A DNA stretch of 64,000 nt from Scatophagus argus (taxonomy: Eukaryota; Chordata; Actinopteri; Scatophagidae). A program made the position numbers and the translations under genes. The stretch covers positions 8,341,774 through 8,405,773 of the forward strand of contig NC_058513.1 of NCBI RefSeq assembly GCF_020382885.2, read 5' to 3'. Within the stretch, counting starts at the first letter, position 1; the number at the start of each line of letters is the position of its first letter. Shown here in pieces: positions 41,548 to 64,000 of this stretch. Below the pieces are notes generated by a model, which had not been told where the DNA came from, ran no database searches, and saw only the letters and a list, made by a program, of their open reading frames with translations.

Positions 41548-43099
41548 GTTATATCTAGAAATACACACGAGTGGAAAAAATGGGAATGCGTGGTGTCACA
41601 TTTCATAACAGTCCTCAAGTGGACGTGGTCAAGTCACCATTTTGTATTCGCCAATAGAGAGATATGGGCGGAGTCAGGTGAAAGAGAAAGGTTATCACTT
41701 CTGACTTGACTTTGATGTGAAGACACTGAGGATAATTTTGCAAGGACCTCAGCTATTTGATACCACAAGGTATTTATCAGTTCTTCACAAATAGCCTACA
41801 TTCCGTTGTTTCAAAGCGCATATGCTGTTTGTTTATGAGCTGCTCGCGGCTGTAGACTTTCGTTTTATTTGCCTCAACAAGAAGCTTACGTGGCATACAA
41901 TGTGTGTGCGTGTGTGAGTGTGAGACTATGCGACTGGTGGGACCTGCCGTGAATGCTGTGGGACCAATAACTTTAACGTGAAAGATGAGTTTGAAACTTC
42001 GCAATGCTGTTAATGATCATAGGACTCAAAATTATTCCAGTCCGCTACAAAACCTACAAAGCCATGCTTTCGTGCTTCATGACACGAGGAGACGATTGCA
42101 TCAGCATACCCTCTCTTTTCTTTTTTTTTTGAAAATGAACCGAAACAAGCAAAAAACAAACAAACAAACAAAAAAAGCTAACACAGGTGAGATTTCATGC
42201 AGTAAGGGTGGTTCAAATTATTCAACTTTATTCCATCAACTTGTCAATAATGTGACTTAACAATATCAAACAACCCCTGCGATGGCATTTAAAAGACCCG
42301 GTGAAAGGTGGGTGGGATCCCGACCTTTACTTTTCTGTAAACTGCGCGTTCAACCTGGCAACCCACAGTCACACGTGCTGGGAAGCTGAATGTTGAGCGG
42401 ATCTCTTAGCTTATGCGGCGTTCAGGGCTCCTGGTACGTGTGAGAGACCCGCTGGAACGCAGTCATGTCGAATTGAATTAGATGTATCTCGAAAATAGTG
42501 TTTATACAAAATCAGTGCATCAGTAACATTAATTCAAAGAAAAAAAAATGACAAACGTAAATGTCCAAAAATACTGTCAGGAACGTATTCTCCCATTGTG
42601 AGAATATTGTTATGAGTTTCGATGATTTGCTGACTGTTTTATAATATTCAAAGTAAATAATGATACTTTTAGGTTCGCACGTAAATAAAGATTTTTCAAG
42701 ATATCACCTTCTGCTCCGGAAAAGAACAGATATAACTGACAGATATTATTTATATATTGACAGATATAAATAATGAATAAACTATTAAAAGCTGACGTGT
42801 TCTGTCGAGCTGTTCGCGTGTTCTACTTGTGCGCGCTAATAACGGTGTACAATTTTCGTGCAGCTCCCTGAAACCAGCACCGTAGGTGGGGTCCATTATA
42901 TTGCATCACGCGGAAGAAAAGCGCTTTATGAACTGCAAGAAAGCGCGGCTATAAACTGCGTGTACACGGATGTTATTTGTTTTTCCACCCCATGTGGCTG
43001 TCAGCAATAATGTACCTCGTGTATTACATTTAATTTGAGTTGTAGAAACATAGGAATAACTTAGGTCGAGTGTGCTTGGTTGTCAGCAGCGAGGGACCG

Positions 43100-43221
43100 A
43101 AACGCTACTACACGTGTTTGCATCTTCTGAACGGACCGAAGAACAAAATAGTGTCGTCGACTTCCTCCGTTTTCTATCGTCTCCAGCGTTTCTTCTACCT
43201 CCTCCTTGAACACAGTAGCTG
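43100..43221 (+). promoter_or_regulatory. Probable 5' UTR exon of transporter copy A
   Basis: A good donor (AGCTG|gtgagc) ends at 43221, and the preceding sequence from about 43137 is repeated almost exactly before copy B (54898-54980). Conservation between copies and the donor support a shared first exon. The 5' end is not defined; a ctataaa lies about 150 bp upstream. Confidence 0.5.
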
Positions 43222-43741
43222 GTGAGCAGGTTAGTTTGGTTTATCAGAGACGTTTCGGTGTACACGTTCCCTACAAAGACATACGATCTTTGCTAGTTCT
43301 TTAGCTGGTTCCAGTTCAGTTGCTGCACAAACAGATTAGAGCTGAGTTTATTTCCTGGAGGCAAAGGTGATATAAGATTGGTTAGCACGATAAGTGCTCT
43401 AAGTAATGTGAAATATGAGGATAAATGTTTACTGCATCTATCCAGTCTAATCGGGGATTATTTCAAATCCGGGTTAGTAGGTGAATACTATTAGCGTAAC
43501 TGATCACCAGGCTGCTTTTACGTACACTCAGACTGTTTCATGCATTGTCCTTTCTGTCAGGTCCTACTCTCATTCATGTAAGTAGGGTGGACAACATTAC
43601 AGACATCTCCATTATAGCATTTCTCAGTTCACCAGCACTACTACTGCAGCCTGCAAATATAGCTGAACGAACACTGTGCAGGGCTGTGGTACTAGACTAC
43701 ATCAATTTTAGGAAGGTGTACCTTAGTAACTGGCAACTGAG

Positions 43742-43743
<2 letters not shown>

Positions 43744-43776
<33 letters not shown>

Positions 43777-43790
43777 ATACACACACACTG
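43744..43790 (+). repeat. (CA)n microsatellite in copy A 5' intron
   Basis: About 22 CA units, interrupted by cat units near the end, lie 150 bp before the coding start exon of copy A. There is no counterpart before copy B. Confidence 0.93.
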
Positions 43791-43935
43791 TTCAACTGCA
43801 GAAAAGTCATTCAGAAATTTTTAAATAAATACACCATAGCTGCGTTGGTCGTCTTGCTGCAGACTGCTTCACCAGTGCAGTTGTTAAAATGTGTGTCTTG
43901 ATCAGTTTCTTTCCCCCCCTCCCATACTACCTTAG

Positions 43936-46900
43936 ATGGAGAAGCAGCCATTGCCAGGTGACGATGACAAGACAGGAACCATGGAGTCAGAGACTGATCA
44001 GCAGGGCTCATCTGAGCCAGCAGCTCGAGCAGGATGGAACAGTAAAATAGAGTATTTTTTGGCTCAGGTGGGATTCAGTGTTGGGCTTGGCAACGTCTGG
44101 AGGTTTCCATATTTGTGTCATCAAAATGGAGGGGGTGAGTACTTATTATTATTGCTGTTATTATTATTATTATTATCTTCATCATGTTAGATGGCTGCCA
44201 CAAGTTTGGGACCTGTGGGTCCCATGGGACCAAACACGAATGTTGTGGTTGCAAGATATTCAGTATTTACTCAAAGGAAAGTTTACTAAACAAATAAATG
44301 AATAAACTAAACAATGTTGCTCTTAAGTCTTTTGTTTGAACCATTTGGTTTCTGTCTATTTTCAGGAGCAATTAAAAAACAACTAAAAAACAAATACATG
44401 CATAAATACTGAAATTTTGCTTGCACTGTATTTAAGCAGAATAGTCTGGCCAAAACATCTTCTTGTCTTTTATTGTATAAAATTGTGGTGCTCACTGACT
44501 AACTACTGGATACCCTCTCTCCTCAGGAGCTTTCCTCTTCCTGTATGTGCTGTTGATGCTGGTTGTGGGAATCCCCTTATTCTTCCTGGAGCTGGCAGCC
44601 GGTCAGGCCATCCGACAAGGCAGCATCGGAGTGTGGAAGTACATCTCCCCCAGGCTCGCAGGGATCGGCTACTCCAGTTGTGTGGTAAGAATCTGTTAAA
44701 TGATTGACTTACCTTCCAATAGCCTTAGATTGTTCAGTGTATGATATTGCATGCATTTCAAGTGACACTTTTACTGTTATAAATGTTACACATTTATGCT
44801 TCACTGAGTTATTTTCTGTTTTCCTTTTGCCACCATCTAGAACAGCACATTCCTATTGCTGTAAGTGTAAGGAGTAATGGTGTTTACCCATTTAATGAAA
44901 GTATAGGGATAGCAAACAAAGATGCGATGATGTGTACTGTAAGGTCGGGCAGCATTTTGATATTGTTGAATCGAGAATGAATGTGCTGCATATGAATGAA
45001 ATGTCAGCATGGTCTAAGCATTGTCAATAAAAGATTTAATATTCACTTATTCACTTGTGCTGATTATAATAATGTGCTGATAATACCGGTTTTTGTTTTG
45101 TTTTTTTGTTTTTTTTACAAAAAGGGATGAAGTACTTTCTTTGGATTATTGTCTTTGACGAGGACATTATTTCAGCTGTAGAGAGAAACATGTGTCTTAT
45201 TACCACATACGTAGGTTGCATTTATCCTTGAAAACGTTAAACCTTCTTATTAATCAAATAACCATGTTCCATCCTCAGGTGTGTTTCTTTGTGGCTATCT
45301 ACTACAATGTAATCCTTGCATGGAGTCTTTTCTATCTGGGGAAATCGTTCCAGTACCCTTTGCCTTGGGAGCAGTGTCCAAAACAGGGGAACGTAACAGG
45401 TAAACACATAACACTAAGGTTCAAAAGTGACTGCATTAGCTGTGCGTCATATGTAAGACTACGAACTGATCGTGATTTTTCTTTACACACCAGTACAAGA
45501 ATGTGAAAAGAGCTCGCCCACATCATATTTCTGGTACCGCGAGGCTTTGGACATCACAGACTCGATTGATGAGACTGGCTCTTTCAACCCTTACATTGTC
45601 TGCTGTCTGCTGGCTGCCTGGACCATTGTGTGCTTGGGAATGTTCAAGGGTATCAAGAGTTCTGTCAAGGTGATATTCTTTGCTTTCTTTTAGCATCTGA
45701 CAGATGTTTCAGTAGAGCTGTGATGATCAAGAGATTTAAACTAGGGTTGTTTGTTTTCCCCATCGCCCACCCTCCCAGCAAAACAGTGAAGGAAGCATGC
45801 CAAAAAAAGTCTCAACCCCAAGATTTTCTTAGCATTCAACTTAATATGAATAACAAAATGAGGGGAGAATTGAGTGCTCTGCTGTGTTGTTATTAATGTT
45901 ATGTCTCCTGCTGTAAGGAGCAGTGAGACAGCGAGTGGGTGCAGTGTTTTTCATGTGAAACAGACTCAGCAATTTGTTACCTGAAAGTTAAGTTTAGGTT
46001 GTTTAATGTTGCAGAGTCTGTTGGTCAGCTGATCTCATTTGTACTGCCGATTGCTGCTCCGTTCAGCTAAAGTTAGGCTCTGAGTGATGGTGTACAAAGT
46101 ACCGACAATACATGGCTCGTTCTTCTAGAGGCAATTACTTAGTCAATAGATGAAAAAAAAATGTCTAACTGGTGCCTAATGAGATATTTCAGCATTGAAA
46201 ATGGTCAAAGTTAAAAGTGTCTTAATCAACCAGATGCACTATTTGCTTTCCACAGCCACACGCATCAGTCATTTCTGTTCCAGCAAGACAAGTTTGGTTG
46301 CCCAGATTTCTGTGGTGCAACCAAAATCAAAATCCTGGCTTCATGCCTGGTTCAGAAGCTTCAAACACTGCAGCTACTGTGAAATGAATTCCTGGCAGTT
46401 ACTAGGTCAGTTACTTCTTCAAAGAAAGGGTGCAACGGTTGTTCCTCTGCTGAGCGTTATCAGCCAGTATTCATCCCAAATAGTTTGATTGGTGGTCCCT
46501 GTAAAGGCTAATCACAAGAACTAGTTTCTCTTTGCACCAGTACAATGTAATGGCTTGCAGGGCTTGAACGGCATCCTATTCTCCTGTGAGGGGCGATGAA
46601 AAACGAGTGTGTTTGGCGTGACTAGGATATAACAAATGACAAACTCAACTGAGCATGACCATTACTGGCTGGCTACTTGGCACAAGGTATGTCAAAAATC
46701 TGAAGGTTCTGAAGTTTTTCTGCAGTACCCGTCCATCTGTCGCTCAGCCACAAATGGCTTGTTGGGACAAATTTGTTGGACTGGTCAAACGGAGGGAGCA
46801 GGGCAGGTCTTTATCAAAATCAGCAGGAGGACAATTAGTTGGCTGTTATCAGCCCAGGAGCAGCAACAGTACTTGTACACGTGGGCAAAGCCAAATAAGT

Positions 46901-49295
46901 GACTTTTGCTGCTATTTTGTAGATTTAAACATCCTTTCTCATGTTCTAGGTGATGTACTTCTCTTCCATCTTCCCCTACGTGGTGCTGTTCTGCTTTCTC
47001 GTCCGAGGACTCCTGCTGGACGGGTCCTTAGAAGGAATCACCTACATGTTCTACCCCAAGGTATGTGCACATGATGTGTCTTTTTGAGTGCAGAGGGGAT
47101 GCAGACATGAGTATTTCCCTAACACACCTCTTGTTCCTTCTACATGTTTACAGCCAGAAATTTGGGGGGATGTGCAGGTGTGGCGGCAGGCAGCAACGCA
47201 GGTATTCTTTGCCTTAGGACTTGGCTTTGGGTCCATTATTGCCTACTCATCCTACAATCCCAAGAACAACAACTGCCACCGCGATGCCTTCACTGTCTCT
47301 GCTATAAACTTCCTCACATCTGTACTGGCCACCCTAGTGGTGTTTGCTGTGCTTGGTTTCCGTGCAAAGGAAAAGGTCATGAAATGTGTAGTCAGGTATG
47401 TTTAATCAGATGATTAATATTGAATTGTGCATAAAAAGACCTGCAAAATATGATGACTTCAAATGTTATTCGTGAGAATAGAAATATTTGTATATATTAA
47501 TGTTGTAAGCTTCCTCTTCTTTACATTTGTCATGGCTCATGCCAAATGTGTTTTTAATATCTTTTATGTTTGAAATCACATTTTATTTTGTCTTGTTCTT
47601 TTCTCAGTAATATGAAGACATTTTCAGATCAGTTTCACAGTGGTGTTGTGGACCAAAACCTGATTCCAGCCTTCAACTATTCTGATCCCAGTTCAGTGGC
47701 TTTAGAGGACTACAGTGCCTGGTTTAAACAGTATGGAAATTCTGTCCCTGGAAACTTAACAGAGTGTGACCTGGAAAAAGAGATGCAGAAGGTAAAGACT
47801 GTCAATTTGCTGTGGTGGATGTTTTTTTATTGGTGTGTTGTATATAACAACTAAAGCTGGCACATCTTGTTTGTTGTTAGGGTGTGGAGGGCACAGGCCT
47901 GGCTTTTATAGCCTTCACAGAGGCCATGACACTCCTGCCTGGTAGTCCCTTCTGGTCAGCACTCTTCTTCCTCATGCTGCTCAACTTAGGACTCAGCACC
48001 ATGTTTGGCACTATGGAAGGCATCCTCGCTCCACTCACTGATCGCTTCAAAACCCTGGCCAACAACAAGACCAAACTCACAAGTAAATGCCTGTTCACTT
48101 GTTTCACTTCCACGACTCAGGATAGTTAGAGAGCTGGGTTTTATTTTCACTGTACATTAAGACTGGAGAATTTTAAATATGTCTGAATTTGAAAAATGAA
48201 TGGCCATTTTTGGAAATCAGGCTTAATGCTTATGGTGTTATTAGCAACATTGGGTTCAACATAGCTCATAGTTATTGGGTCAAGCCTATTTTGCGATGAG
48301 ACTTCTGGTGGTGGAGAGAGCATCAACGCTGTCTTGATTTCTTTTCTGTGTTTGATTGCGTACGCTGTGTTTAAAGTTGTTGTTTCATCCTAACGTGTCT
48401 GTTCTGTTTTTATATTGTTGCAGTCTTCAGCTGCATCATTGGCTTTTTAATTGGCCTTCTCTTCGCCCAGCGTTGTGGGAACTACTTTGTGATGATGTTT
48501 GATGATTACTCCGCCACTCTGCCCCTCATCATTGTGGTGGTGTTTGAGACCTTCAGTGTGTCTTGGCTGTATGGAGCTGACAGGTGAACTCTTGAAATGG
48601 TCAAACCTACGCAGATGTCAACTCTTCTCTATCAGTGTTGGTCATGACAAATGTGTAGTTTCTGAAATTTTGTCACTCTTTGTACCTGAAGATTCCTTGA
48701 TGACATTGAGGGGATGCTGGGCTGGCGTCCCAGTGTGATTTACAAGTACCTGTGGAAATACATCTGCCTGCTTGCTATGCTTGGGCTGCTGGGAGCCACC
48801 GGCATCCGTATGTTCATCAAACACCCAACATATATGGCCTGGAACCAAGAGAAGGTATGAAGAGTTATACTAAGATACTATTAAGAAAAAAACTATTGCA
48901 AATGTTAACACATATTCTACACCTGCTTCCCTTCCATAAGGAAGCAAGTGATGGTGACTTTCTCTCACTTCACATTAAATATGTAAAGCAGAGGAGTAAA
49001 AGTTGTGGTTGTCTAAAGTGTTAAGTGATGATGAATTTGATTCTCTCTTGTTCAGGCTTCCGAGGAACACCTGGCGTACCCTGGCTGGGCTCTGGCCGTT
49101 TTGGCTATACTGATCATGTTTGCCATGATGCCTGTCCCAGTGGCTTTAATCCACAGAGTTCTGAAAGACAGAACAAACCAAACAACCAGAGATACAGAGA
49201 TCGGTCAGTACAGCATTGTTGACACTGATGACAAGTGTGAAACCGCTATGACTGACATGTCAGAGCTGGACCAAAGGAACGGCCACGCTGACTAA
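43936..49295 (+). CDS. slc6a16: SLC6 family Na+/Cl- dependent transporter, SLC6A15-17/SLC6A16-like, copy A
   Basis: It is a 12-span plasma or vesicle membrane transporter of the amino-acid/orphan branch; the substrate is unknown. Coding exons: 43936-44134, 44527-44684, 45279-45399, 45494-45669, 46950-47060, 47154-47395, 47608-47791, 47881-48082, 48424-48583, 48692-48854, 49056-49295; 651 residues. TM1 has the canonical [16 protein letters not shown] (residues 46-61) with the Na1-site Asn53. TM3 has Tyr128 (LeuT Tyr108). TM7 has Asn307 and Ser311 (GAT1 Asn327, Ser331). TM8 reads LGLSTMF (Ser436, Thr437), where copy B and SLC6A15 have LGLGSMF. The long EL4-side insert and CHRDAF are typical of the SLC6A15/17 group. 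The symbol rests on subfamily similarity plus eps8l1/cox6b1 neighbours that are 19q13 genes in human; slc6a15 or slc6a17 paralogues are not formally excluded. Confidence 0.85.
44142..44176 (+). repeat. (TTA)n tract in copy A intron
   Basis: An imperfect tta repeat lies just after the first coding exon. The homologous intron of copy B carries its own version at about 55571-55610, of different length, so the repeat predates the duplication. Confidence 0.85.
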
Positions 49296-49585
49296 TTTCC
49301 CTCAACAGTGGACATGATGTTACTGTTTTTTCTTTTAATATCTGAAGACTTTTCCCACCTTTTTTATTTATTAAATCCAGACATATTCAAAAGATTTTTA
49401 CTTTTTAAAAATACTGCAACAAGTGCAACTTTAACGTATTTGTAATATTGAAAAACGAAGATGTGGAACAAATGGTTTATTTCTGTTTGGTAATTACGAG
49501 TTTTTACGAGAATTTGTAACACCTGTTGTCCAAATGAGCTGTAACAATGTTTTGCAGTTTTCAGTGTAAACCACAGACATAATAT

Positions 49586-49896
49586 CCATCCATCCATCCA
49601 TCCATCCATTTTCTATACCGCTTATCCGTCAGGGTCGCGGGGGGGCTGGAGCCTATCCCAGCTGACTACGGGCGAGAGGCGGGGTACACCCTGGACTGGT
49701 CGCCAGTCAATCGCAGGGCCAACACACAAAGACAAACAACCACACACTCTCACACTCACACCTAGGGGCAATTTAGAGTAGCCAATTAACCTAATGTGCA
49801 TGTTTTTGGTATTGTGGGAGGAAGCCGGAGTACCCGGAGAAAACCCACGCAGGCACAGGGAGAACATGCGAACTCCACATAGAAGGGCCCAGACCG
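49586..49896 (+). mobile_element. Non-LTR retroelement fragment with 12-bp target-site duplication
   Basis: A 311-bp insert begins with ccatcc units and continues with the ttctataccgcttatcc, gagaaaacccacgcaggc and gggagaacatgcgaactcc segments that are widespread in percomorph genomes. It is flanked by cagacataatat at 49574-49585 and 49897-49908, a perfect 12-bp target-site duplication, so it is a genuine retroposition into the 3' region of copy A. It resembles the 3' part of an L2/Maui-type LINE or a derived SINE; the family name is from memory. Confidence 0.8.
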
Positions 49897-50926
49897 CAGA
49901 CATAATATCATTCTTTTAATTTTTGTATGAATAGCACTTGTGGCATGTTTTACCAAAAAAAGACATTTATTTTGCTCTTTTTTTAATTTCATAGAAGAAA
50001 CGTCGCGTGAGAGTTATAAAAGTTAAAAAAAAGCATAATTTCAAGAATCCATAAATGACAACGTGGGTCCCAAAAAATTTGTCAGTTTTTCAGAATCCGA
50101 CGCCTCACAGTCTTCATTGCATTATAACAGAATCAGAATTCACTGTTCAAAGACTCTCCTAGACGCAAGCTCTTGTGTTCATTTACCTTAAACACTTAAC
50201 TCAGTGTTGTTTTTCCAGCCCCGTAAATGAGACAGTTATTATCAAAATTGTTTTAGGTTGGGAATTAGATTTTGTTTGAGTTACAATGAAAAAGCTGAGC
50301 CTGAATTAAAACGATGATGATAGGATAATGTATGTTAAGGATAATGATGGCTTTAGAAGGCTGCCACATCAGGACAGAGTTCATTCGACTATGTTTTATC
50401 TCAGTACAGCTGTTTGTTACAGTATTGCTGTTGTTCACGAGAAGCCATCCAACTGTGTTTACAGCTCAACATGCACCTGAGGCCTGTACAACAAAGCAGG
50501 TTCAGCATAACAGGATATCTTTCTGTTATCTGTCTTCACTGATCCTAGCAACCACAGTTACACTAAGCTATAACACGACGACTGTCATGTGTTACCCCTA
50601 AAGTTACCTCACTAACACCAAATCTTGCTTTAGTACAGGCCTTTGAGCCACTGTGCTGCTTCAGTTTGATACACTGCATGTTTGCAGGTGTTCTGTGTAG
50701 CTACACAAGTCACACTACATGTGTGTTATCCTTCTCTGTTTAAACTGACCTGAATTCCAACAGATGATTCACAGTCTCTGAGCGAACAGCATTTGCTTTG
50801 GTTAAAAGTCATTGTTATGTCTTTGTTTTACTGGTGAAAGATATCAAGTCGGACTCTGAATGTCTGAGTTTCCATCATCCTGTCACATTGATTTCTGTGA
50901 TGTCAGACAATGGCAACAAAACCACT

Positions 50927-50947
50927 GGGGGGGGGGGGGGGGGGGGG
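50927..50947 (+). repeat. Poly-G run of 21
   Basis: An uninterrupted run of 21 G lies in the 3' region of copy A. Such runs are rare and error-prone in sequencing, so the exact length is uncertain. Confidence 0.9.
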
Positions 50948-51706
50948 TTCAGTCATACAGTGTTGTGGAAGCGTTAAGGTCAACTCCTATATGTAATGTA
51001 AAAATGTATATAGCACAAGTTTAAAAAAAAATCAACCAAGAACACATAATTGAAAATAGGTGAGTTTTTAAACATTTGTTGTTATTGAAACTCTACATGA
51101 CGTGTTGATTTTTGTTAGTTTGGGAAAAGTATTTGCATATTTGTTTGAACAGGCTATACAAAGTACTACAGAAAGTACTCTTTCAGATTTTATGTGGATT
51201 TAATTTAAGGTGTTTATTTCGTAAAAAGTTTTAAAACATAATTGCTCGGTCATGTCTTGTTTTTTGTAGCCATTTGTCTAAAAAACTTTAAAGTGTCAAT
51301 TTTTACAGTTTCAGTGGATTACTATCAACACTTAAATGCAGTTGTATGATTGTAACACAACTAAGTGCCTTTTAAATTTAGTGAGGCTGATTACACAAGA
51401 TTTCACAAGCTTTTTAACATATTTAGCATTTTAAAGACCTTAGTTTTGGCAGATTTCACTTTTCAGCAATGTGTGTAGTCTGTGTGTATATAATGAATGT
51501 TTAATGAAAATGTGATATAAAACCATTTCAGTGTAATATATTTTAGCTATTATGAAATGTTTTCTTGAAATGCAGCTTAAGCTTGTAGTTTAAACATTAC
51601 TTGGACTTTTTCCCAACAAGATGACTTGTTTTTTATATTTACATGTATAGAAAGTGATTTTCAGGGTATTTGTCTTGTCCTTTATAGAAAAGGTGCTCTG
51701 AATCTG

Positions 51707-51712
51707 AATAAA
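51707..51712 (+). terminator. Candidate copy A poly(A) signal
   Basis: AATAAA in the context aatctgaataaattctg. The homologous position after copy B reads AGTAAA (61227-61232). Confidence 0.45.
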
Positions 51713-53728
51713 TTCTGTTTTGCAAGTATGAATTAGTTGTGCAAAAGAGATATTTTGAGCTGGGAAATACGATTGAATCATTTTCCTCCATTATACAGAA
51801 CATAAATGTGTTAAATGCAACATGTTATGTTATCTTCTCACCCATGTTTGTCTAATATTTCAAGGTTTGTACAGTATAGTGGGCTGGTGTTTGCCAAGTC
51901 AGTTAAGTGAAAGTTGGCCCAAAAGTGTTTAAGTGCTGCTAAGAGGCCCCGAATATCGAGGCCAGATATTGATTGAATATTTTGCTGACACAGCAGTTCC
52001 GACAACCACTCTCCAGATAGTGACGTTTTCTTTCCATTACTTACTTTGGCAAGCCCAGTGTATACAGTTTTCTAGTATTTCTTGCAGGGCGCCGCCACTG
52101 AAGCATTTGTGGTTGTCTAACGTCACTTCAGAGTTGCTGGCAGTTTTCCATGGACTAAGAAGCATTTCTGTAGTCATGTTCTCCGTCAACATCCTGGCTG
52201 AGTGCTGCTGGCCACCTGCACTCTTATCTGTCTGGGAAAAGCTGTGCCATGTCAAGGCTTCTGCTAAAGTAGATGTCTCAACATCAAGGACAACATGCTT
52301 TTTTGCCTGATGAAGCTAAATCTGCCTGACTGGGAAATATTTTTAAGTTTTCCCAGCTCTGACTGACTGCAGGCAGATTTCGCTTCATGTTTGTAAAACC
52401 TGACGGCTTGTATTTGCATATTAAATGCAGGTGTCCTGAAATGTGATGACTGAAGCTGTGACCTGTGTTCATAGATCTGACCTGCTGTAGTTTTAGCTTT
52501 TCAAAACAATCTTTTCACTGATAGTGAATAGTTAAAACATTTCTTGGTTATTTTCTTCCATATCAGTCCTTGAGCAGTTTGAGTGTCCTCACCAGACAGT
52601 GCAGACTGTGTAAAGGGAACACACACCACCCTGAATGAAAAATGTTTCAAACCAGCCAGCTCACAGGGCCAAATATCAGACTGTTAGATCTCCAGATTGT
52701 TAATCAACAAGGACAGAGTGAAATATGATACATTTTCATGCCTCTAAAAAAACAAACAAACAGCTGATTGATATCAATTTTTTTTTATCAATCATGATGA
52801 TTGATTTTTCAGTGAACTTTGCATCTGTCAGATCGATTGGCCACAGGCTTGAGTTCTCTTCCTCTTTGCTGGCTTTGTTTTATTGTGTTTCAGGCAATTG
52901 ATTGGGTGGAGCTGAGAACTCATTGGATCCGACTCACCTGAGCTGGTTGGGATCAGGAAGTCATAAAGCAGCCCTGAAAGACGTTCTCACCCTCCTCCCT
53001 TCGCCTGCCAGCTGAGATTTTTTCTGTTTGTGGTTTGTGTTTGATACTAATACACACAGACATTGCACTTGTCCAGATCTGCTGACAGACACACCCACTG
53101 TCTTGTTTAATTAACTTCATCAAAACCTTTGTCATTAAAACAGTGTAGTCTCCCTCTTTTGTCACATACCTTTGAGCCTGGTTGTGACAGTAAATTAATG
53201 AATTTAACAATAAAATAACCCTTGATGTCCTTTATCCAGAGAATCTTTTAGGTTTCTATATTCTGCATTATTTTTAGACTTAAGTAAAAAATAAAAGTCT
53301 ACAATGCTAGATGTTAACATTCAGTTGCGCATGATGGTTTCTCTTCCTGTCAAAAGGACTCAAATGCTCAAATGCTCCTGTTGCCTGAGATTGAAGCAGT
53401 ACATTTATGTGTCAGTAGGGAGCGCTGCTTCACTCAGAGCATTTCTTTACTGAACATCATCCTGTTTCAGAAGGTTGCGTGACCTCTGCAAAAACATTTC
53501 AGCTCTTGTTTTGTCATTTTGATATTAAATGCCTCACAGTTTTCATTGCCTTCAAATCACTGCTGTCTATCTGTTCAAACTGCAGCTTCAAGGTTAAGTT
53601 TCTAAATGTTTGTAGAGGATTCACAGGTGTACCTGTGGTAATACTGAGGGTCCTGGAAAACAATTACAATTGTTTTGATCGATTAACATTTTATCTTTCC
53701 ATTTGTAGGTGTACCATTGGTGACCCAC

Positions 53729-53893
53729 ATGGCAGGCCTGGCAGCCCTGTGCCTGCTGCTGGTGTTTCCACTGAGCAGCTCCCAGAGCGCCCTGCAGTCT
53801 GAGCAGGAGATCAGTGGCCATCAGGCCCCGGCAGGACCTCCTCCACCACCTCACATAGAGACTTTCTCAGAAAAGAAAAAACTACTTATTTAA
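53729..53893 (+). pseudogene. Stranded, frameshifted signal-peptide exon of the downstream membrane-protein gene
   Basis: The first 41 codons, from [17 protein letters not shown] to the Pro-rich PAGPP, are nearly the same as the first coding exon of the gene at 62401 (Thr21 to Ala is the only change seen). After the PAGPP codons the copy is four bases shorter, shifts frame and meets TAA at 53891-53893. The old donor (acat|gtaagtg, about 53909) and 100 bp of intron are preserved, but the membrane and tail exons are absent: the next kilobase holds a Tc1 fragment and then transporter copy B. It is read as the left-behind end of a tandem duplication. It could still be spliced onto something downstream, but I see no partner. 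Confidence 0.85.
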
Positions 53894-54288
53894 ATGCAAA
53901 GCAAACATGTAAGTGCAATTCAGAGACATGTTGTCCAGTAGAACTGCAAGTATCCAACCTGCACATTGTTAATGTTTCAAATGCAACACATGATAAACAA
54001 GGATGCCCCCAGTCGGAACAGGATTGGTGTGTGATACCTCTTACCTATCACTCTGGTGGTCTTTGTTCTGTGTTTGTGCCTCCCTCAACTCTATTTGCTG
54101 AATGTTAATGTGCTCATGTTTGACCAGACTCGTGCTGTAATCGTGTTGCCTGCTGTAATCTTCTACGTGCTGCACTCCCTCCCAGTTGAGTTTTGCCTTT
54201 TTGTTTTATCAGCATCATATTAGAAAACTGATTGGGTGTCTCATTCAGCCCGATAGGACCAAGTCTCTTTGTTGTCATTTTCATTACA

Positions 54289-54666
54289 TCACAGTGTATC
54301 AGTGTACAGTTCAGTAACTGCAGGCAAACCAAACTCATCCAACCATGTCTTTATGGGCTTTGCTTTGTGCACTGGTTCACAGCCATGCTGGAACAGTAAA
54401 GGGCCTTCAAACTGTTGCCACAAGGTTGGAAGCATAGCATCGTCCAAAATGTCTTGGTATGCTGAAACATTAAGATTTCCCTTCATTTGAAGTAAGGAGC
54501 TGAGCCCAAACCCTGAAAAACAGCCCCATGCCAATACTTTTGTCTTTATCATATCCATGGCCTGAACTAACCCTGTGCAAATTTCCATGTTTCCATTAGC
54601 TGAGGGGTGAACCCAGCGGTGATTACAAAGTTTACTGGCTCCCGTCACCATACAGCAGGGAAACAT
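54289..54666 (-). mobile_element. Tc1/mariner transposase fragment, inactive
   Basis: A minus-strand open frame of 125 codons contains [32 protein letters not shown] and [12 protein letters not shown], the middle of a teleost Tc1-like DDE transposase. The second catalytic Asp (family QHDxAPVH) is Gly here, the N-terminal DNA-binding part is missing and the LNPIEHLW end is not seen, so it is dead. It sits between the stranded exon and copy B, at the join of the duplicated units. No terminal repeats were identified. Confidence 0.85.
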
Positions 54667-54897
54667 GTGTGGGATATAAAAAAAACAAAAACATTTAAGA
54701 TATTTAAAATAAACACCACATTTAAAGCTTGATGTCCCTAATTTAAGTCAGAAAAAGAAAAAACTAAATTTTCACTTTTGCACCACCCACTCTCCTCTCT
54801 TAAATAAAGAAGAGTCATTTAATGTAATTACCATAGTCATGAAGTAAATACAGCTTTAAGCTACCTTAGATACATTTAATGTGGAAAATAGAAATAA

Positions 54898-54980
54898 GAA
54901 GAACAAATAGTATCGTCGACTTCCTCGGTTTTCTGCCGTCTCCAGCATTTCTTCCACCTCCTCCTTGAACACAGTAGCTG
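54898..54980 (+). promoter_or_regulatory. Probable partial 5' UTR exon of transporter copy B
   Basis: This matches copy A 43137-43221 and ends at the same AGCTG|gtgagc donor. Homology to copy A fades just left of about 54898, inside this exon, so the sequence 5' of the copy A exon was not carried along. Copy B must use another promoter or start within this remnant. Confidence 0.5.
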
Positions 54981-55363
54981 GTGAGCAGGTCAGTTTGGTT
55001 TATCAGAGACGTCTTGGTGTACACGGTCCCTACAACGATGCACGGTCAGATGATGACGCTGTAGTTCTTTAGATTGACTTCAGATATCGCGCAATGATAT
55101 TGGACCCATGTGGTCTAAGAGGGGATTATTTAAAACTTGGCGTAGAAAGTGGATTTATTTAGGATAATTGATAAGCTGGTGGGGAAAACTGACTGCTTTA
55201 ATGTACACTCGGTCTCATGCACCATTAAACTTGAATAGAGTAAAATAAAGTTGAATGAAGACGTTTCAATACAGTTTCAATAAAAACAGATTATGAAGGT
55301 AGGATATATGACAGGGATCAGTTTCAGCCATAGTAGTAAGTCTTTTTTATTCTTTCGTCTTAG

Positions 55364-58300
55364 ATGGAGAAGCAGCCTTTGCCAAGTGATGATGCCAAGA
55401 CAGGAACCATGGAGTCAGAGACTGATCAGCAGGGCTCATCTGAGCCAGCAGCTCGAGCAGGATGGAACAGTAAAATAGAGTATTTTTTGGCTCAGGTGGG
55501 ATTCAGCATCGGCCATGGAACCATCTGGAGGTTTCCATATTTGTGTCATCAAAATGGAGGGGGTGAGTACTTATTATTATTAGTATAACTATTATTATTA
55601 TTATTATTATCTTCATCGTGTTAGGTGGCTACCACAAGTTTGGGACCTGTGGGTCCCATGGGACCAAACACGAATGTTGTGGTTGCAGGATATTCAGTAT
55701 TTACTCAAAGGAAAGAGTTTGTAGTCAGCCGCACAGGACAAGCAGGTGATGAAAGAGAGACTTAACCAAACATGTAAAAATGCTTTCATTACCAAATGTT
55801 TAAGCCTATGCAGTACACTTCTTAACATTTTGCTTTATAGATGTATAAACTATCCGTAAATAAACTGAACAATGCTCCTCTTAAGTCTGTTGTTCAAACC
55901 CTCTGGTTTCTGTCTCTTGCCAGGGGACGTGATATAAACTCCAAGATTAACAAATACAAATACGGCCCATAACAATTTAATCGTTTTATCTGTGAATGCT
56001 ACTTGGTTATTTTTACTTTCAATGAGGCTTACTGTCAGTTTGTTTTATAATTGTGGTTTACAAAACCATTGAGGCGTGATATACAGATTTCTGAAGAACA
56101 CTGTCAGAATCAAAATTCTGTTTGCAATAGATTGAAGGAAGATAGCATGGCAGAAACATCTGCTTCTCCTCCAGAATATCACATCGTGCAGCTCATTGAC
56201 TGACTGACTGCTGGCCACCCTCTCTCCTCAGGAGCTTTTCTGTTACTGTTTGTGCTGTCGATGCTGGTTATGGGCATCCCCTTTTTATTTTTGGAGCTGG
56301 CAGCCGGTCAGGTCATCCGACAAGGCAGCATCGGAGTGTGGGAGTACATCTCCCCCAGGCTCTCGGGGATTGGATATTGTACCTGTGTGGTAAGAAGCTG
56401 ATTGACTTGTCTTGTAATAGCATTAAATTAATGCTTTAAGTGTAATTATTGCTATAAGTGTAAGGCAAGGGAATAATGGTGTGTTTAAACCAATTAATAA
56501 AAACATTTGAACAGTGAACTAAGATGTGTACTAGTTACACAGCCTGCATGTTATCCTATAAATCATCGTTTTTTTCATTAACTGCGTAACCATGTTCTGA
56601 ACTGTCCTCAGGTGTGTTTATTAATGAGTCTTTACCACAATGTAATCCTTGCATGGAGTCTTTTCTATCTGGGGAACTCGTTCCAGTACCCTTTGCCTTG
56701 GGAGCAGTGTCCAAAACAGGGGAACGTAACAGGTAAACACATAACATTAAGATTCAAAAGTGACTGCATTAGCTGTGCGTCATATGTAAGACTACGAACT
56801 GATTGTGATTTTTCTTTACACACCAGTACAAGAATGTGAAAAGAGCTCGCCCACATCATATTTCTGGTACCGCGAGGCTTTGGACATCACAGACTCGATT
56901 GATGAGACTGGCTCTTTCAACCCTTACATTGTCTGCTGTCTGCTGGCTGCCTGGACCATTGTGTGCTTGGGAATGTTCAAGGGTATCAAGAGTTCTGTCA
57001 AGGTGATATTCTTTGCTTTCTTTTAGCATCTGACAGATGTTTCAGTAGAGCTGTGATAGTAATAAAGTTGGCTTGGGTAGGTTTTTGGTTTTTCTCAGTT
57101 TGGTCCAGTGTACAAGCTTAAACCAGTTTAATTCCATACAAACCAATTGGACAAGTGGTGTTGTATGCAGTTCTGGTTCCCCTGCCCCATGCCTGTCAGA
57201 GCAGTGGAGGAAGTGCTCCCAGTATTTGTTCTTTAAAGTGTACTGAAGAAGTATCTCCTGCAGCATGACTAAATTGTATCAACAAGGAATAAAAGGTTTG
57301 GTTTGACAGGTTTGACTTAAAAAAAAAACAATAGCTAATGGTAGAGTTTATTAATTACTCGGTGTGTTATTTAGTTTTTGACACAAAGGGCCTGTGCGCA
57401 CAGGGAAAACCAAACAAGCAACTTTTGCTGCTATTTTGTTGATTTAAACATCCTTTCTCATGTTCTAGGTGATGTACTTCTCCTCCATCTTCCCCTACGT
57501 GGTGCTGTTCTGCTTTCTCGTCCGAGGACTCCTACTGGACGGGTCCTTAGAAGGAATCGCCTACATGTTCTACCCCAAGGTATGTGCACATGATGTGTCT
57601 TTTTGAGTGCAGAGGGGATGCAGACATGAGTATTTCCCTAACACACCTCTTGTTCCTTCTACATGTTTACAGCCAGAAATTTGGGGGGATGTGCAGGTGT
57701 GGCGGCAGGCAGCAACGCAGGTATTCTTTGCCTTAGGACTTGGCTTTGGGTCCATTATTGTCTACTCATCCTACAATCCCAAGAACAACAACTGCCACCG
57801 CGATGCCTTCATCGTCTCTGCTATTAATATCTTCACCTGTTCGCTGGCCTCCCTAGTGGTGTTTGCTGTGCTCGGCTTCCGTGCCAAAAAACGAGTCATG
57901 AAATGTGTAGTCGGGTATGTTTAATCAGATGATAAATGTTGAATTGTGCGTAAAAAGACCTGCAAAATATGTTGACTTCAAATGTAACACACACACACAC
58001 TGGTATACTTCCTCTATATCTTTATACACCGATCAACCACAACATTAACACCACTGACAGGTGAAGAGAGCAACATTAATTATCATGCTGACCAAATACC
58101 TCCCGCCAGGAGGCCCCATGCTCAATGCTCAGGACCCAAAGGAACCAACATTCCCACATTTCAATGCCAGTGACCACAAAATGCCCACAAAGGTCCCATC
58201 TCTCTTCCACTGACAGGTCAGCGTTGTTTAAGCAGCACAAGGGGAACCTACAAAATATCAAGCAGGTGGTTTTAATGTTGTAGCTGATCTGTGTATCTGT

Positions 58301-60148
58301 GTATTTATTTATGTGTAATACTGAACATGTTTTTAAACTTGATATCTTTTATGTTTGAAATCACATTTTATTTTGTCTTGTTCTTTTCTCAGTAATATGA
58401 AGACATTTTCAGATCAGTTTCACAGTGGTGTTGTGGACCAAAACCTGATTCCAGCCTTCAACTATTCTGATCCCAGTTCAGTGGCTTTAGAGGACTACAG
58501 TGCCTGGTTTAAACAGTATGGAAATTCTGTCCCTGGAAACTTAACAGAGTGTGACCTGGAAAAAGAGATGCAGAAGGCAAAGACTGTTAATTTGCTGTGG
58601 TGGATTTTTTTGTATTTAGTGTCTTGTACATAAAAACTAAAGCTGGCACTCTTGTTAATTTTCAGACTGTGGAAGGCCCAGGCCTGGCTTTTGTAGCCTT
58701 CACAGAGGCCATGACACTCCTGCCTGGCAGTCCCTTCTGGTCAGCGCTCTTCTTCCTCATGCTGCTCAACTTAGGACTCGGCAGCATGTTTGGCACTATG
58801 GAAGGCATCCTCGCTCCACTCACTGATCGCTTCAAAACCCTGGCCAACAACAAGACCAAACTCACAAGTAAACGCCTGTTCACTTGTTTCACTTCCGTGT
58901 AGCATGTCCTCCATATCACATTACTGACATGATTCAAGTTAGTTAGGGAGCTGGGCTTGTAAGAAGACGTGACATGTACCAGTACAGTAAAACACACTTC
59001 ACTTCTTTGGCACATCAAAAAAACAAACTAATTTCAGTGAACTAACTCAAATTATTTTTATTGCTCACACTGGTGGTATTGGAACAAAAAAAAGGTCAAG
59101 TTTTGAAATGAAGGACAATCCATCAGCTGATTTCATTGACATGTTCAAGCAGAGAGAGAACAAAAGTTGTAAATTGATCTGCAAAGGTTATTCAGAATGA
59201 AACACAAATTGTCCAGTGCCTCTATTTTAAAGTTGTTGTTTCATCCTAACGTGTCTGTTGTGTTTTTATATTGTTGCAGTCTTCAGCTGCATCATTGGCT
59301 TTTTAATTGGCCTTCTCTTCACCCAGCGTTGTGGGAACTACTTTGTGATGATGTTCGATGATTACTCCGCCACTCTGCCCCTCATCATTGTGGTGGTGTT
59401 TGAGACCTTCAGTGTGTCTTGGCTGTATGGAGCTGACAGGTGAACTCTTGAAATGGTCAAACCTATGCAGATGTCAACTCTTCTCTATCAGTGTTTGTCA
59501 CAACAAATATGTGGTTTCTGAAATTTTGTCACTCTTTGTTCCTGAAGATTCCTTGATGACATTGAGGGGATGCTGGGCTGGCGTCCCAGTGTGATTTACA
59601 AGTACCTGTGGAAATACATCTGCCTGCTTGCTATGCTTGGGCTGATGGGAGCCACCGGCATCCAAATGTTCATCAAACACCCAGCATATATGGCCTGGAA
59701 CCAAGAGAAGGTATGGAAAGATATATTAAAGTACACTTTTAACCTTGAAAAGAAAATAGCTATTGGAGATAATGGAGGACGTGGACAGGGTTTTGTTTGT
59801 GGAGTTTGAACTCTTGAAGGTAACAATTGATTTCAAATTTCTCTCACTTCATATTAAATATGTAATACTCGGTCGTTGACAGTTCCAGATTGTTCTTGCG
59901 TTCTTGGGCGATAAATTTGATTCTCTTTTGTTCAGGCTTCTGAGGAGCACCTGGACTACCCTGGCTGGGCTCTGGCCATTTTGGTTATACTGATCATATG
60001 TGTCATAATGCCTGTCCCAGTGGCCTTTATCCACAGAGTTCTGAAAGACAGAACAAACCAAACACCCAAAGATACAGAGATCGGTCAGTACAGCATTGTT
60101 AAGGCTGATGGCAAGTGTGAAACCCTTAAGTATACTTTGGCACGATAA
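55364..60148 (+). CDS. SLC6 family transporter, SLC6A16-like tandem copy B with altered ion and substrate sites
   Basis: Tandem paralogue of copy A. Exons: 55364-55562, 56232-56389, 56612-56732, 56827-57002, 57469-57579, 57673-57914, 58393-58576, 58666-58867, 59280-59439, 59548-59710, 59936-60148; 642 residues with no stop or frameshift. Against copy A, TM1 reads [13 protein letters not shown] (Leu51 to His, Asn53 to Thr), TM3 reads LYHNV (Tyr128 to His) and TM7 reads INIFTCSLA (Ser311 to Cys). These correspond to LeuT Leu25, Asn27 and Tyr108 and to GAT1 Ser331, which normally hold Na+, substrate and Cl-. TM8 keeps LGLGSMF. The donor after 58576 is GC instead of GT; if unused, the frame stops about 19 codons on. 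The C-terminus is shorter and different ([10 protein letters not shown]). It may be a non-transporting or re-tuned paralogue; pseudogenisation in progress is possible. Confidence 0.82.
55571..55610 (+). repeat. (TTA)n tract in copy B intron
   Basis: The counterpart of the copy A tract at 44142-44176, with a different length and interruption. Confidence 0.85.
58025..58295. mobile_element. MITE with 30-bp terminal inverted repeats, TA ends
   Basis: Inverted ends at 58025-58054 and 58266-58295 match at 26 of 30 positions and begin and end with ta, as expected for Tc1/mariner-type non-autonomous elements. The 271-bp body has no coding capacity. It lies in the copy B intron between exons 57673-57914 and 58393-58576 and is missing from the matching copy A intron, so it inserted after the duplication or was lost from A. 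Confidence 0.8.
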
Positions 60149-62097: not shown

Positions 62098-62400
62098 TAT
62101 GGAGATTACTGTACAGTTTCAGAGGCCTCCTCTTAGAGCAGGACCAGGCTGGGTTTATTCCAAAGTTATTCCAAAGAACAACAAGCTGTAGTGTGGAAAA
62201 CAGCTGTGATATTGTTTGGTCTGTAGGTTTGCTATGTAACTTAAAGTGAGAGTTGAGATGACATAAATAGTCTTCTGAGACAGCATAGCTGCTGAACTTT
62301 CAAAATGAGAAAACCTCAGTAGAAAACCTTCATGCAGCAATAATATTTATGTTTGTTATATTTTATCTTTCCATTTGTAGGTGTACCAGTGGTGACCCAA

Positions 62401-62950
62401 ATGGCAGGCCTGGCAGCCCTGTGCCTGCTGCTGGTGTTTCCACTGAGCAGCTCCCAGAGCACCCTGCAGTCTGAGCAGGAGATCAGTGGCCATCAGGCCC
62501 CGGCAGGACCTCCTCTGCCTCCACCGCAGATACGAGATCTGCTCAGAAAAGAGGAAAACACTCATTTAAATGCAATGCAAACATGTAAGTGTAATTCAGA
62601 GACATTTCAGTAGAACTGCAAGTATCCAACCTGCACATTGTTAATGTCTCAAATGCAACATGTGATTAAATAACAAAGATGTCTTACACTGAGTTGGAGC
62701 TTAAAGGCATAAAATATGCAGAATATACTGGGTGTTGTTTGTAAACATATTCTGGAAAATGACCATTAACTCACAGAAATGTCCCAAACATAACAAAATA
62801 ATGACAGAATAAGAAAACACAGGAAGAGCGAAGATACAGACACAACCACACACTTCTAGTGGATCCTTAGTGATCGCTGAGATTGATTATTTTTGCATTT
62901 ATATTTAGGAAGTTCCTGCATATTATATCTTTAACTCATCTTAAACAGGA

Positions 62951-62987
<37 letters not shown>

Positions 62988-64000
62988 CAGAGAGAGAGAG
63001 AGAGAGACTCCTCTGACTCTGACAGTCTTTGTTATGCATTTGCTTCTGCACAGATGCTCGTTTAGACAAAGATAATGCCAAAGTGGGTCTGTTCATCGCT
63101 GCCTCCATTGGAACCTTTGTTCTGATGGCTGCAGTGTACTGTATCTACAACAAGTTCTACACCAAACAGCAGTACCTGCACACCCAACTTAACGACGACT
63201 TAGGTATGCGTTTTTATTACACTGTTAATGATTTAGAGCCTACAGTGACTGCAGAGACTCGACCAGAAACTTGAAGACAAGACTTTTGTATTTGTGGTTA
63301 GATGTAAAAATACTCACATATCGTCCTGCACAACAAAGTGGCAACAAAAAAAAAGCTGTCGAGTGAGGAAAAAAAACTGAAGTATCGAAACTTCTCTCAG
63401 AGTGACGAATGCGGCTAGAGACTGAAATAGAAACCGTCTCATCATAAGCAGACACAAAGAGAGAGAAAGAGACTTCAAACCAGAGAAAACTGCACTCATC
63501 AATGTCTTTTTCCTCACTTGTCTCTTGGGGATCATTTGTTGTCAAAAGCATTGCAGGCCAGCTGGGTTATCAAACATGAGCCTGTTATGTCATGTTTACT
63601 GACTTGCAGGAAGACGCCTAAGAAGCACTTCCTGCTTGCTTGGTCTGAGGCAATAATAAATGATTTTATCTGGTGCAGCTTTAAATACAGCAGTAAATAT
63701 CTATATACAGTCAATGTTAAATGTACTTACAGACACATGTCTGATCATAATGAAAAAATGCACTTCATTTTTTTTTACTGCCATGAAGTGGAACTTAATG
63801 CTGTCTTGTGTGCTAATTTTCAGGCAGTATCTACACATTTTAGGTTCATTCTGTGATATCTCTGTGTGCAGATTTGACCGCAGACCCCATGGACCCTCCC
63901 CCTGTGTTTTTCCACGCCTCTGTTGCCTCCAGTGCAGCAGATGTGCGGAAAGCTGGTTATGGCTCGCTCTCTGACACTCCGTCCATCATCTCAGTGCCAC
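62401..64000 (+). CDS. Unrecognised type I single-pass membrane protein, 3' end outside window
   Basis: I do not recognise the family. Exons are 62401-62584, 63054-63203 and 63872-64000 (cut by the window edge), phases consistent, about 154 residues visible. The chain begins with a clear signal peptide ([20 protein letters not shown]). A short Pro-containing ectodomain follows, then a single span ([20 protein letters not shown]) with a [19 protein letters not shown] juxtamembrane part. The cytosolic tail is rich in Ser/Pro and reads [26 protein letters not shown]. Orientation follows the signal peptide: N-terminus outside. Its first coding exon is also present as a broken duplicate at 53729-53893, so this is the intact parent. 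The start at 62401 was chosen for the signal peptide. Tail tyrosine (GYGSLSD) and serines may be phosphorylated; this is inference. Confidence 0.75.
62952..63007 (+). repeat. Compound (TG)n(AG)n microsatellite
   Basis: About 17 TG units followed by about 9 AG units lie 50 bp before the exon coding the membrane span (63054-63203). Confidence 0.93.

Follow-up and report, generated by a model that had tools for sequence, protein, structure and literature searches.

A tandem SLC6A15/16/17-group duplicate in Scatophagus argus with a replaced ion and cargo core, probably retained and repurposed

Introduction

Which residues can an SLC6 protein lose and yet be kept? The window studied here, the whole 64,000-nucleotide stretch of Scatophagus argus DNA that was analysed, offers a natural experiment on this question, as it carries two SLC6 genes head to tail. 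One, which we call copy A, is canonical. The other, copy B, had been singled out in an initial annotation, which noted four replaced residues in an open frame and proposed loss of ordinary Na+/Cl- coupled transport with retention of the protein, either in a new role or in early decay. The two copies form a matched pair, in which much of the sequence is near-identical and the differences are focused on ion and cargo sites. The pair separates the Na1/carboxylate centre from the rest of the protein, making a Na2-type site and gates without that centre directly testable, and may help toward the role of the orphan SLC6A16 group. Our best explanation, to which we assign a probability of about 0.6, is that copy B is a tandem duplicate of the SLC6A15/16/17 group, retained as a full-length membrane protein of the LeuT fold and repurposed. 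The evidence for this, and for the explanations that compete with it, is set out below.

Results and discussion

Two genes, head to tail

Gene models were built by splicing the window DNA at conserved boundaries. Copy A (43936..49295, plus strand) is a transporter of the slc6a15/16/17 group with 11 coding exons, 651 amino acids and canonical residues; copy B (55364..60148, plus strand), its tandem paralogue with an altered core, has 11 coding exons and 642 amino acids, and the exon phases match. Splicing confirmed the open frame that had been claimed for copy B, with 0 stops in 642 codons; the span first given for it, 55497-57850, does lie within the gene and is only part of it. Against the Pfam SNF profile (PF00209, cut-off 27) copy A scores 592 bits and copy B 565 bits, and copy B covers profile positions 1-523 of 524, which places it in the SLC6 family by profile. 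From residue 636 on, its C-terminal tail is unrelated to that of copy A. All introns of the two genes are GT-AG except intron 7 of copy B (58577..58665, plus strand), which is GC-AG in the splice models; the donor is GT in copy A and in the paralogue C16 introduced below, which marks GC as the derived state. Were this intron retained, an in-frame stop would follow.

Upstream of copy A, in CpG-rich surroundings, a 5' non-coding block at 43138..43288 (plus strand) is the probable first untranslated exon of that gene. Its match before copy B lies at 54898..55047 (plus strand), and the duplicated unit begins at this block (43138 / 54898), with weaker non-coding matches further in. A counterpart of the sequence upstream of copy A was sought before the copy B block and was not found. 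The 500 bp upstream of the copy B block are CpG-poor, the observed/expected CpG ratio being 1.36 upstream of A (42640-43140) as against 0.18 upstream of B (54400-54900), a contrast hinting at different promoter regulation. The tandem duplication also carried a fragment of the next gene along, which now lies between the copies as an extra partial copy at 53688..53997 (plus strand) and matches 62360-62669. The following exon of that gene, near 63050, gave no match in 43000-54905, and Pfam gave no match to part of the downstream protein that was spliced by eye.

The initial annotation had named an allele or assembly artefact as an outcome that would overturn its reading, A and B then being one gene seen twice, as alleles or a haplotig. 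Identity at the DNA level of exon 4 (176 bp), exon 7 (184 bp) and intron 5 (93 bp) would agree with this. However, the two copies stand on the same contig with their starts 11.4 kb apart, 6 of the 10 introns are unequal in length, the duplicated next-gene fragment lies between them, and the diverged islands described below differ at a dS of 0.32. A TM1 search of the 570.7-Mb genome, in which the window lies on contig C21, returned no third copy of the kind, the next best match being C16 at 86%. We therefore regard an artefact as highly improbable, and treat A and B as separate genes.

Replaced residues in the core of copy B

The residues in question are well described in related transporters. 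In GAT1, the Na1 side chains are Asn66, Ser295 and Asn327, Tyr140 binds the carboxylate of GABA, and chloride is held by Gln291, Ser295, Tyr86 and Ser331 (PMC10352132). The chloride ligands of SERT are Asn101, Tyr121, Gln332, Ser336 and Ser372, and its Na2 site is made of Gly94, Val97, Leu434 and Ser438 (PMC12139788), while the carboxylate site of NTT4 comprises Gly81, Tyr157 and Na1 (PMC11416165). The four replacements reported for copy B, L51H, N53T, Y128H and S311C, are all exact in the A/B comparison, with copy A canonical at each. Motif anchoring to Table 2 of PMC2194793 puts them at LeuT L25, N27, Y108 and E290 (GAT1 L64, N66, Y140 and S331). Further core changes had been overlooked, namely Y73F, V124M, V49I and S436G/T437S.

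The changes come in short runs. The TM1 island, codons 48-54 (55505..55525, plus strand), holds V49I, L51H, N53T and V54I, the first three at the positions of LeuT V23, L25 and N27, and is flanked by 111 and 39 identical bp inside the same exon. Y73F, in TM2 (56249..56251, plus strand), falls on the chloride-site Tyr (LeuT Y47, GAT1 Y86, SERT Y121), a position at which the B0AT1 chains also have Phe. The TM3 island (56612..56638, plus strand) comprises F122L, F123L, V124M, A125S, I126L and Y128H, with V124M and Y128H at LeuT V104 and Y108; one more A/B difference, K141N, occurs in the rest of this exon. The TM7 island, codons 302-329 (57811..57894, plus strand), includes S311C (GAT1 S331, SERT S372), and here Asn307, the Na1 Asn of TM7, is retained. 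At the Na2 region of TM8, copy B has G436 and S437 (58780..58785, plus strand), where A and C16 have Ser-Thr and the paralogues C3, C7 and C8 have Gly-Ser; judged by these residues, both changes in B may be a return to an older state.

Taken site by site, copy B is a family member by profile that lacks two residues defining the transport mechanism: the Na1 Asn of TM1 (LeuT N27) is Thr and the cargo-binding Tyr of TM3 (LeuT Y108) is His. Asn307 is the one Na1 side chain left, as N53 is replaced and position 275 (GAT1 S295, the chloride/Na1 Ser) is Ala in all 6 paralogues compared. The chloride ligand positions of copy B read T53, F73, Q271, A275 and C311, so that 1 of 5 is kept, against 4 of 5 in copy A. 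In the Na2 list G46, L433 and S437 are present and V49I and S436G are changed, the Na2 Ser being kept (S437, as in SERT) and G436 being as in three paralogues. Two of the five listed extracellular-gate sites are changed (Y73F, S311C), and all five listed cytoplasmic-gate sites are kept (R31, W34, S288, Y289, D451). No change is seen in the gate pair R56/D492, at Q271 or E88, or in the TM6 pocket residues of the list.

Rarity and direction of the changes

A survey of exons from the same genome covered TM1 and TM3, with gene numbers from the searches being lower bounds. Asn is present at the N27 position in 51 of the 52 SLC6 TM1 exons returned, copy B being the sole exception, and Tyr at the Y108 position in 44 of the 45 TM3 exons returned, where copy B, with His, is again the sole exception. 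The TM3 tally is made up of 39 fetched exons (38 with Tyr by index, the last after a short gap placed by eye), of A, C16, C3, C7 and C8, all with Tyr, and of B. The L25 position is Leu in 48 of 52 TM1 exons, the others having Ile, Val, Pro and, in B, His; at the V23 position Ile occurs in 16 of 52, B included, so V49I is a common state. The earlier description of these residues as near-invariant is thus apt for N27 and Y108, from which B alone departs, and weaker for L25 with its three other exceptions.

The four nearest paralogues in the genome are C16, which has 78% identity with A in 455 common columns, and C3, C7 and C8. Identity is 90% between C3 and C8, and 62-64% between B and each of C3, C7 and C8 in 455 columns. 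Copy A and these four have the usual residues at all seven B-unique sites, and since four near paralogues share them the changes are derived in B. In a tree made without any named SLC6A15, 16 or 17 sequence, the fork of A and B is supported at 100/100, as is a branch that unites A, B and C16 and stands beside C7 and C3/C8; the branch ends measure 0.0008 changes per column for copy A and 0.091 for copy B. We take C3, C7 and C8, in part by elimination, to be slc6a15/17-like. A, B and C16 would then fall into the SLC6A16 group, a placement made by elimination.

Polarised by C16, 35 amino acid changes are B-derived, 5 are A-derived and 14 are unassigned by the outgroup; among nucleotide changes, B has 36 nonsynonymous and 15 synonymous, A has 8 and 13, and 25 are not polarised. 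B0AT1 and SIT1 were dropped as outgroup: 19 positions match A, 13 match B, 2 are mixed and 20 match neither. The polarisation they give is less one-sided than that by C16, and both carry the A residue at 51, 53, 128 and 311. The other five paralogues agree at 31 functional sites (defined below), and B departs from them at 7; at 215 further sites with the same agreement it departs at 10 (p 0.002). The same count gave 0 of 24 for A, 1 of 25 for C16, and 0 of 24 for each of C3, C7 and C8.

These data bear on whether copy B shows no more than the usual variation of its subfamily. Chloride independence, which has been described for orthologues of B0AT1 and B0AT2 (PMC8310414), would in this group make S311C and Y73F tolerable. 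The Phe of the B0AT1 chains at Y73 and the frequency of V49I agree with such a reading. Mammalian SLC6A16 (NTT5) may likewise depart from the canonical TM1 residues. Set against these points, A, C16, C3, C7 and C8 are canonical at every B-unique site, and N27 and Y108 are without another exception among the exons returned. We therefore think it improbable that subfamily variation accounts for the changes.

Gene conversion and diverged islands

Divergence between the copies is uneven. Exon 4 of copy B (56827..57002, plus strand), with 0 of 176 bp differing from that of copy A, is a probable gene-conversion tract, and introns 2, 4, 8 and 10 are 56-63% identical over ungapped columns. Five islands (165 codons), which were delimited after the data had been seen, have a dS of 0.32 and a dN of 0.14, and the other 455 codons a dS of 0.019. 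Scan windows show the clustering. Exon 1 has 12 differences over 199 bp, of which 8 lie within 17 bp (window 22 bp). A 22-bp window in the exon 3-4 block captures 8 of the 12 differences present over 391 bp, and a 40-bp window captures 12 of the 35 present over the 583 bp of the exon 5-6 block. For each of these three clusters, the figure was reached in 0 of 10,000 permutations. The edge of the TM3 island is sharp on the 3' side, and that of the TM7 island mainly on the 5' side.

Much of the A/B coding sequence has probably been homogenised by gene conversion, with the TM1, TM3 and TM7 islands staying distinct. From this we infer that conversion kept acting on the pair, and that over the altered core it was counter-selected or absent. 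It should be considered that the diverged introns adjoining part of the islands can by themselves limit conversion.

Concentration of changes at functional sites

In order to avoid a post hoc choice of sites, functional sites were taken as the 34 LeuT sites of Table 2 of PMC2194793. Copies A and B differ at 9 of these 34 (V49I, L51H, N53T, Y73F, V124M, Y128H, S311C, S436G and T437S), while the remaining 586 positions carry 45 differences (Fisher p 0.0014). When the site mask was shifted circularly round the protein, 9 or more differences were obtained in 4 of 619 shifts. Leaving out the homogenised exons 4 and 7 gave 9/34 against 45/466 (p 0.006), and the islands alone 9/15 against 33/150 (p 0.003). 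If V49I, S436G and T437S are counted as unchanged, being mild or reversible, the comparison becomes 6/34 against 45/586 (p 0.051), and with the same exclusion for B-derived changes only it is 6/34 against 26/575 (p 0.006).

Selection and the case for decay

Rates were estimated with our own three-branch codon model (A, B and C16), either over 609 codons or over the islands. For the B branch, the 609 codons give an omega of 0.68 and the islands one of 1.35; neither is distinguishable from 1 (p 0.69 and p 0.82). Equality of omega between A and B was not rejected (p 0.60 over 609 codons, p 0.25 in the islands), because C16 is saturated at synonymous sites; in the 609-codon fit its branch length reached the bound. 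With the sites partitioned, the B branch has an omega of 3.26 for the 34 functional sites and of 0.84 for the rest (likelihood ratio test, p 0.002), with a p of 0.055 for a value above 1 at the 34 sites. All p values from this model are uncorrected for the number of tests. A whole-gene dN/dS of 0.42 was set aside, as conversion masks the history and the value averages both branches.

The frame itself also speaks to constraint. If 36-46 missense changes had accumulated free of constraint, about 2 stops should have arisen with them; copy B has 0. The islands, 495 bp in all, have 0 indels, against about 6.5 expected over both branches together at the non-coding rate, which was taken from the best-aligned non-coding blocks (14 events in 1060 bp).

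It is logical to ask whether copy B is simply under relaxed constraint and becoming a pseudogene, its open frame reflecting recent decay or repair by conversion from A. The dN/dS check suggested by the initial annotation, in which a value near 1 together with missing transcripts would mean plain pseudogenisation, was run for the B branch; the value of 0.68, indistinguishable from 1, agrees with the dN/dS half of that condition. The derived GC donor of intron 7, with a stop following any splice failure, the altered C-terminus, the CpG-poor upstream region unlike that of A, and the p of only 0.051 once the three milder changes are discounted all point the same way. Decay alone, however, would be expected to scatter changes rather than focus them on functional sites, and it sits poorly with islands at a dS of 0.32 without an indel or stop and with intact salt-bridge and cytoplasmic-gate residues. 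The core focus of the changes in B is hard to ascribe to drift alone, though the rate fits relaxed constraint. Pseudogenisation is thus unlikely in our judgement, though a serious competitor. Of the two outcomes envisaged at the outset, a retained protein with a new role is favoured by the derived changes and the open frame, and an omega near 1 and the GC donor leave room for early decay.

What copy B may do

In copy B, derived changes have replaced the Na1 ligand of TM1 (N53T), a cargo-adjacent TM1 residue (L51H), the TM3 Tyr that meets the cargo carboxylate (Y128H), a residue of the pocket wall (V124M) and two chloride-site residues (Y73F, S311C). Judged from what is known of the family, N53T and Y128H together should abolish the canonical cargo site, and B should not be an ordinary Na+/amino acid symporter. 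It would presumably no longer bind an alpha-amino acid with Na+ at Na1, and may still shift conformation around another ligand, its state being set by Na2 or by protons at the two new His. A conformational change around a different ligand is likeliest because the Na2-type site and the gate residues remain.

As to the loss of ordinary Na+/Cl- coupled transport that had been proposed, the Na1/carboxylate chemistry would be expected to be gone, and the chloride part of the claim is weaker, both because the GAT1 S295 position is already Ala in all six paralogues and because B0AT1/B0AT2 orthologues are described as chloride-independent (PMC8310414). Dependence on chloride may have been weak in the group before B changed. 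Since the Na2 Ser, R56/D492, Q271 and the cytoplasmic gate are kept, loss of all transport does not follow.

Within the best explanation, a transporter with an altered ligand is a tentative first choice, and a non-transporting sensor or partner a rather less probable second. The latter overlaps with a further proposal, that copy B no longer transports and survives as a scaffold or signalling partner, in the manner of SNF-12 of C. elegans, an SLC6 protein of a different lineage which we liken to B by role and not by residues. SNF-12 has been called a key signalling protein, STA-2 activation being believed to need it (PMC7043892), and this precedent from immune signalling, with the loss of the Na1 Asn and carboxylate Tyr in an intact frame, speaks for a scaffold. 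Such a role gives no reason for a focused change of the pocket, or for the kept Na2 Ser and gates, and we consider it doubtful, somewhat more so than decay. Overall, we would order the readings as altered ligand or coupling first, a non-transporting sensor or scaffold second, and decay close behind.

More speculatively, H51 (LeuT L25) and H128 (Y108), possibly with C311, could form a proton- or transition-metal-binding centre in place of the Na1/carboxylate centre, yielding a pH- or zinc-gated protein that keeps the Na2-type site and gate salt bridge. We would put little weight on this idea.

Comparison with known systems

SLC6A15 (B0AT2) and SLC6A17 (NTT4), which are Na+-dependent neutral amino acid transporters, belong to the same group as copy B. 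The slc6a15/17-like paralogues C3, C7 and C8 resemble B in the Gly-Ser of TM8, which is equal to theirs, and differ in retaining Leu and Asn in TM1 and Tyr in TM3, all of which B has replaced. Of the carboxylate site described for NTT4, Gly81, Tyr157 and Na1 (PMC11416165), B keeps the Gly only. The solved structures nearest in sequence, B0AT1 (SLC6A19) and SIT1 (SLC6A20), have whole-length homology to copy A at about 498 bits each; at the three core positions both retain Leu, Asn and Tyr, unlike B.

SLC6A16 has been grouped with SLC6A15 and SLC6A17 (PMC8310414, PMC6590891). A, B and C16 would be the third branch of that group, orthology to the orphan SLC6A16 (NTT5) being assigned by elimination. 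If the departure of mammalian SLC6A16 in TM1 holds, the Na1 centre would have been lost on more than one occasion within the group, with copy A as its conservative member. Among the open-licence literature matches listed, none described a fish copy resembling B, and the names slc6a16a and slc6a16b appeared in a bird study only. No relatives were found in IMG/VR, which may omit records from the window's own genome or close to it.

Neighbouring genes and other SLC6 loci

Several other genes lie in the window. A plus-strand gene at 8.0-9.2 kb carries DUF4457 by Pfam, and we take it to be KATNIP. On the minus strand, a beta-propeller of FAM234A/B type was found by Pfam at 22.9-23.4 kb; CD37, which had been considered for this gene, was ruled out by the Pfam match. 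A LUC7 N-terminus lies near 28.5 kb on the plus strand, with a Pfam score below cut-off, and PTB and SAM_3 pieces by Pfam at about 32-39.4 kb on the minus strand belong to what is presumably an EPS8-like gene.

Elsewhere in the genome, six TM1 exons of SLC6 genes lie within about 48 kb of contig C13 (3483341-3531309; L044, L045, L049, L073, L074 and L076), and on contig C5 two SLC6 exons separated by about 600 bp encode one and the same TM1 peptide (L050, L051). One further TM1 exon (L086, G000:C14:16635585-16635892) has Pro at the L25 position and keeps the Asn at N27.
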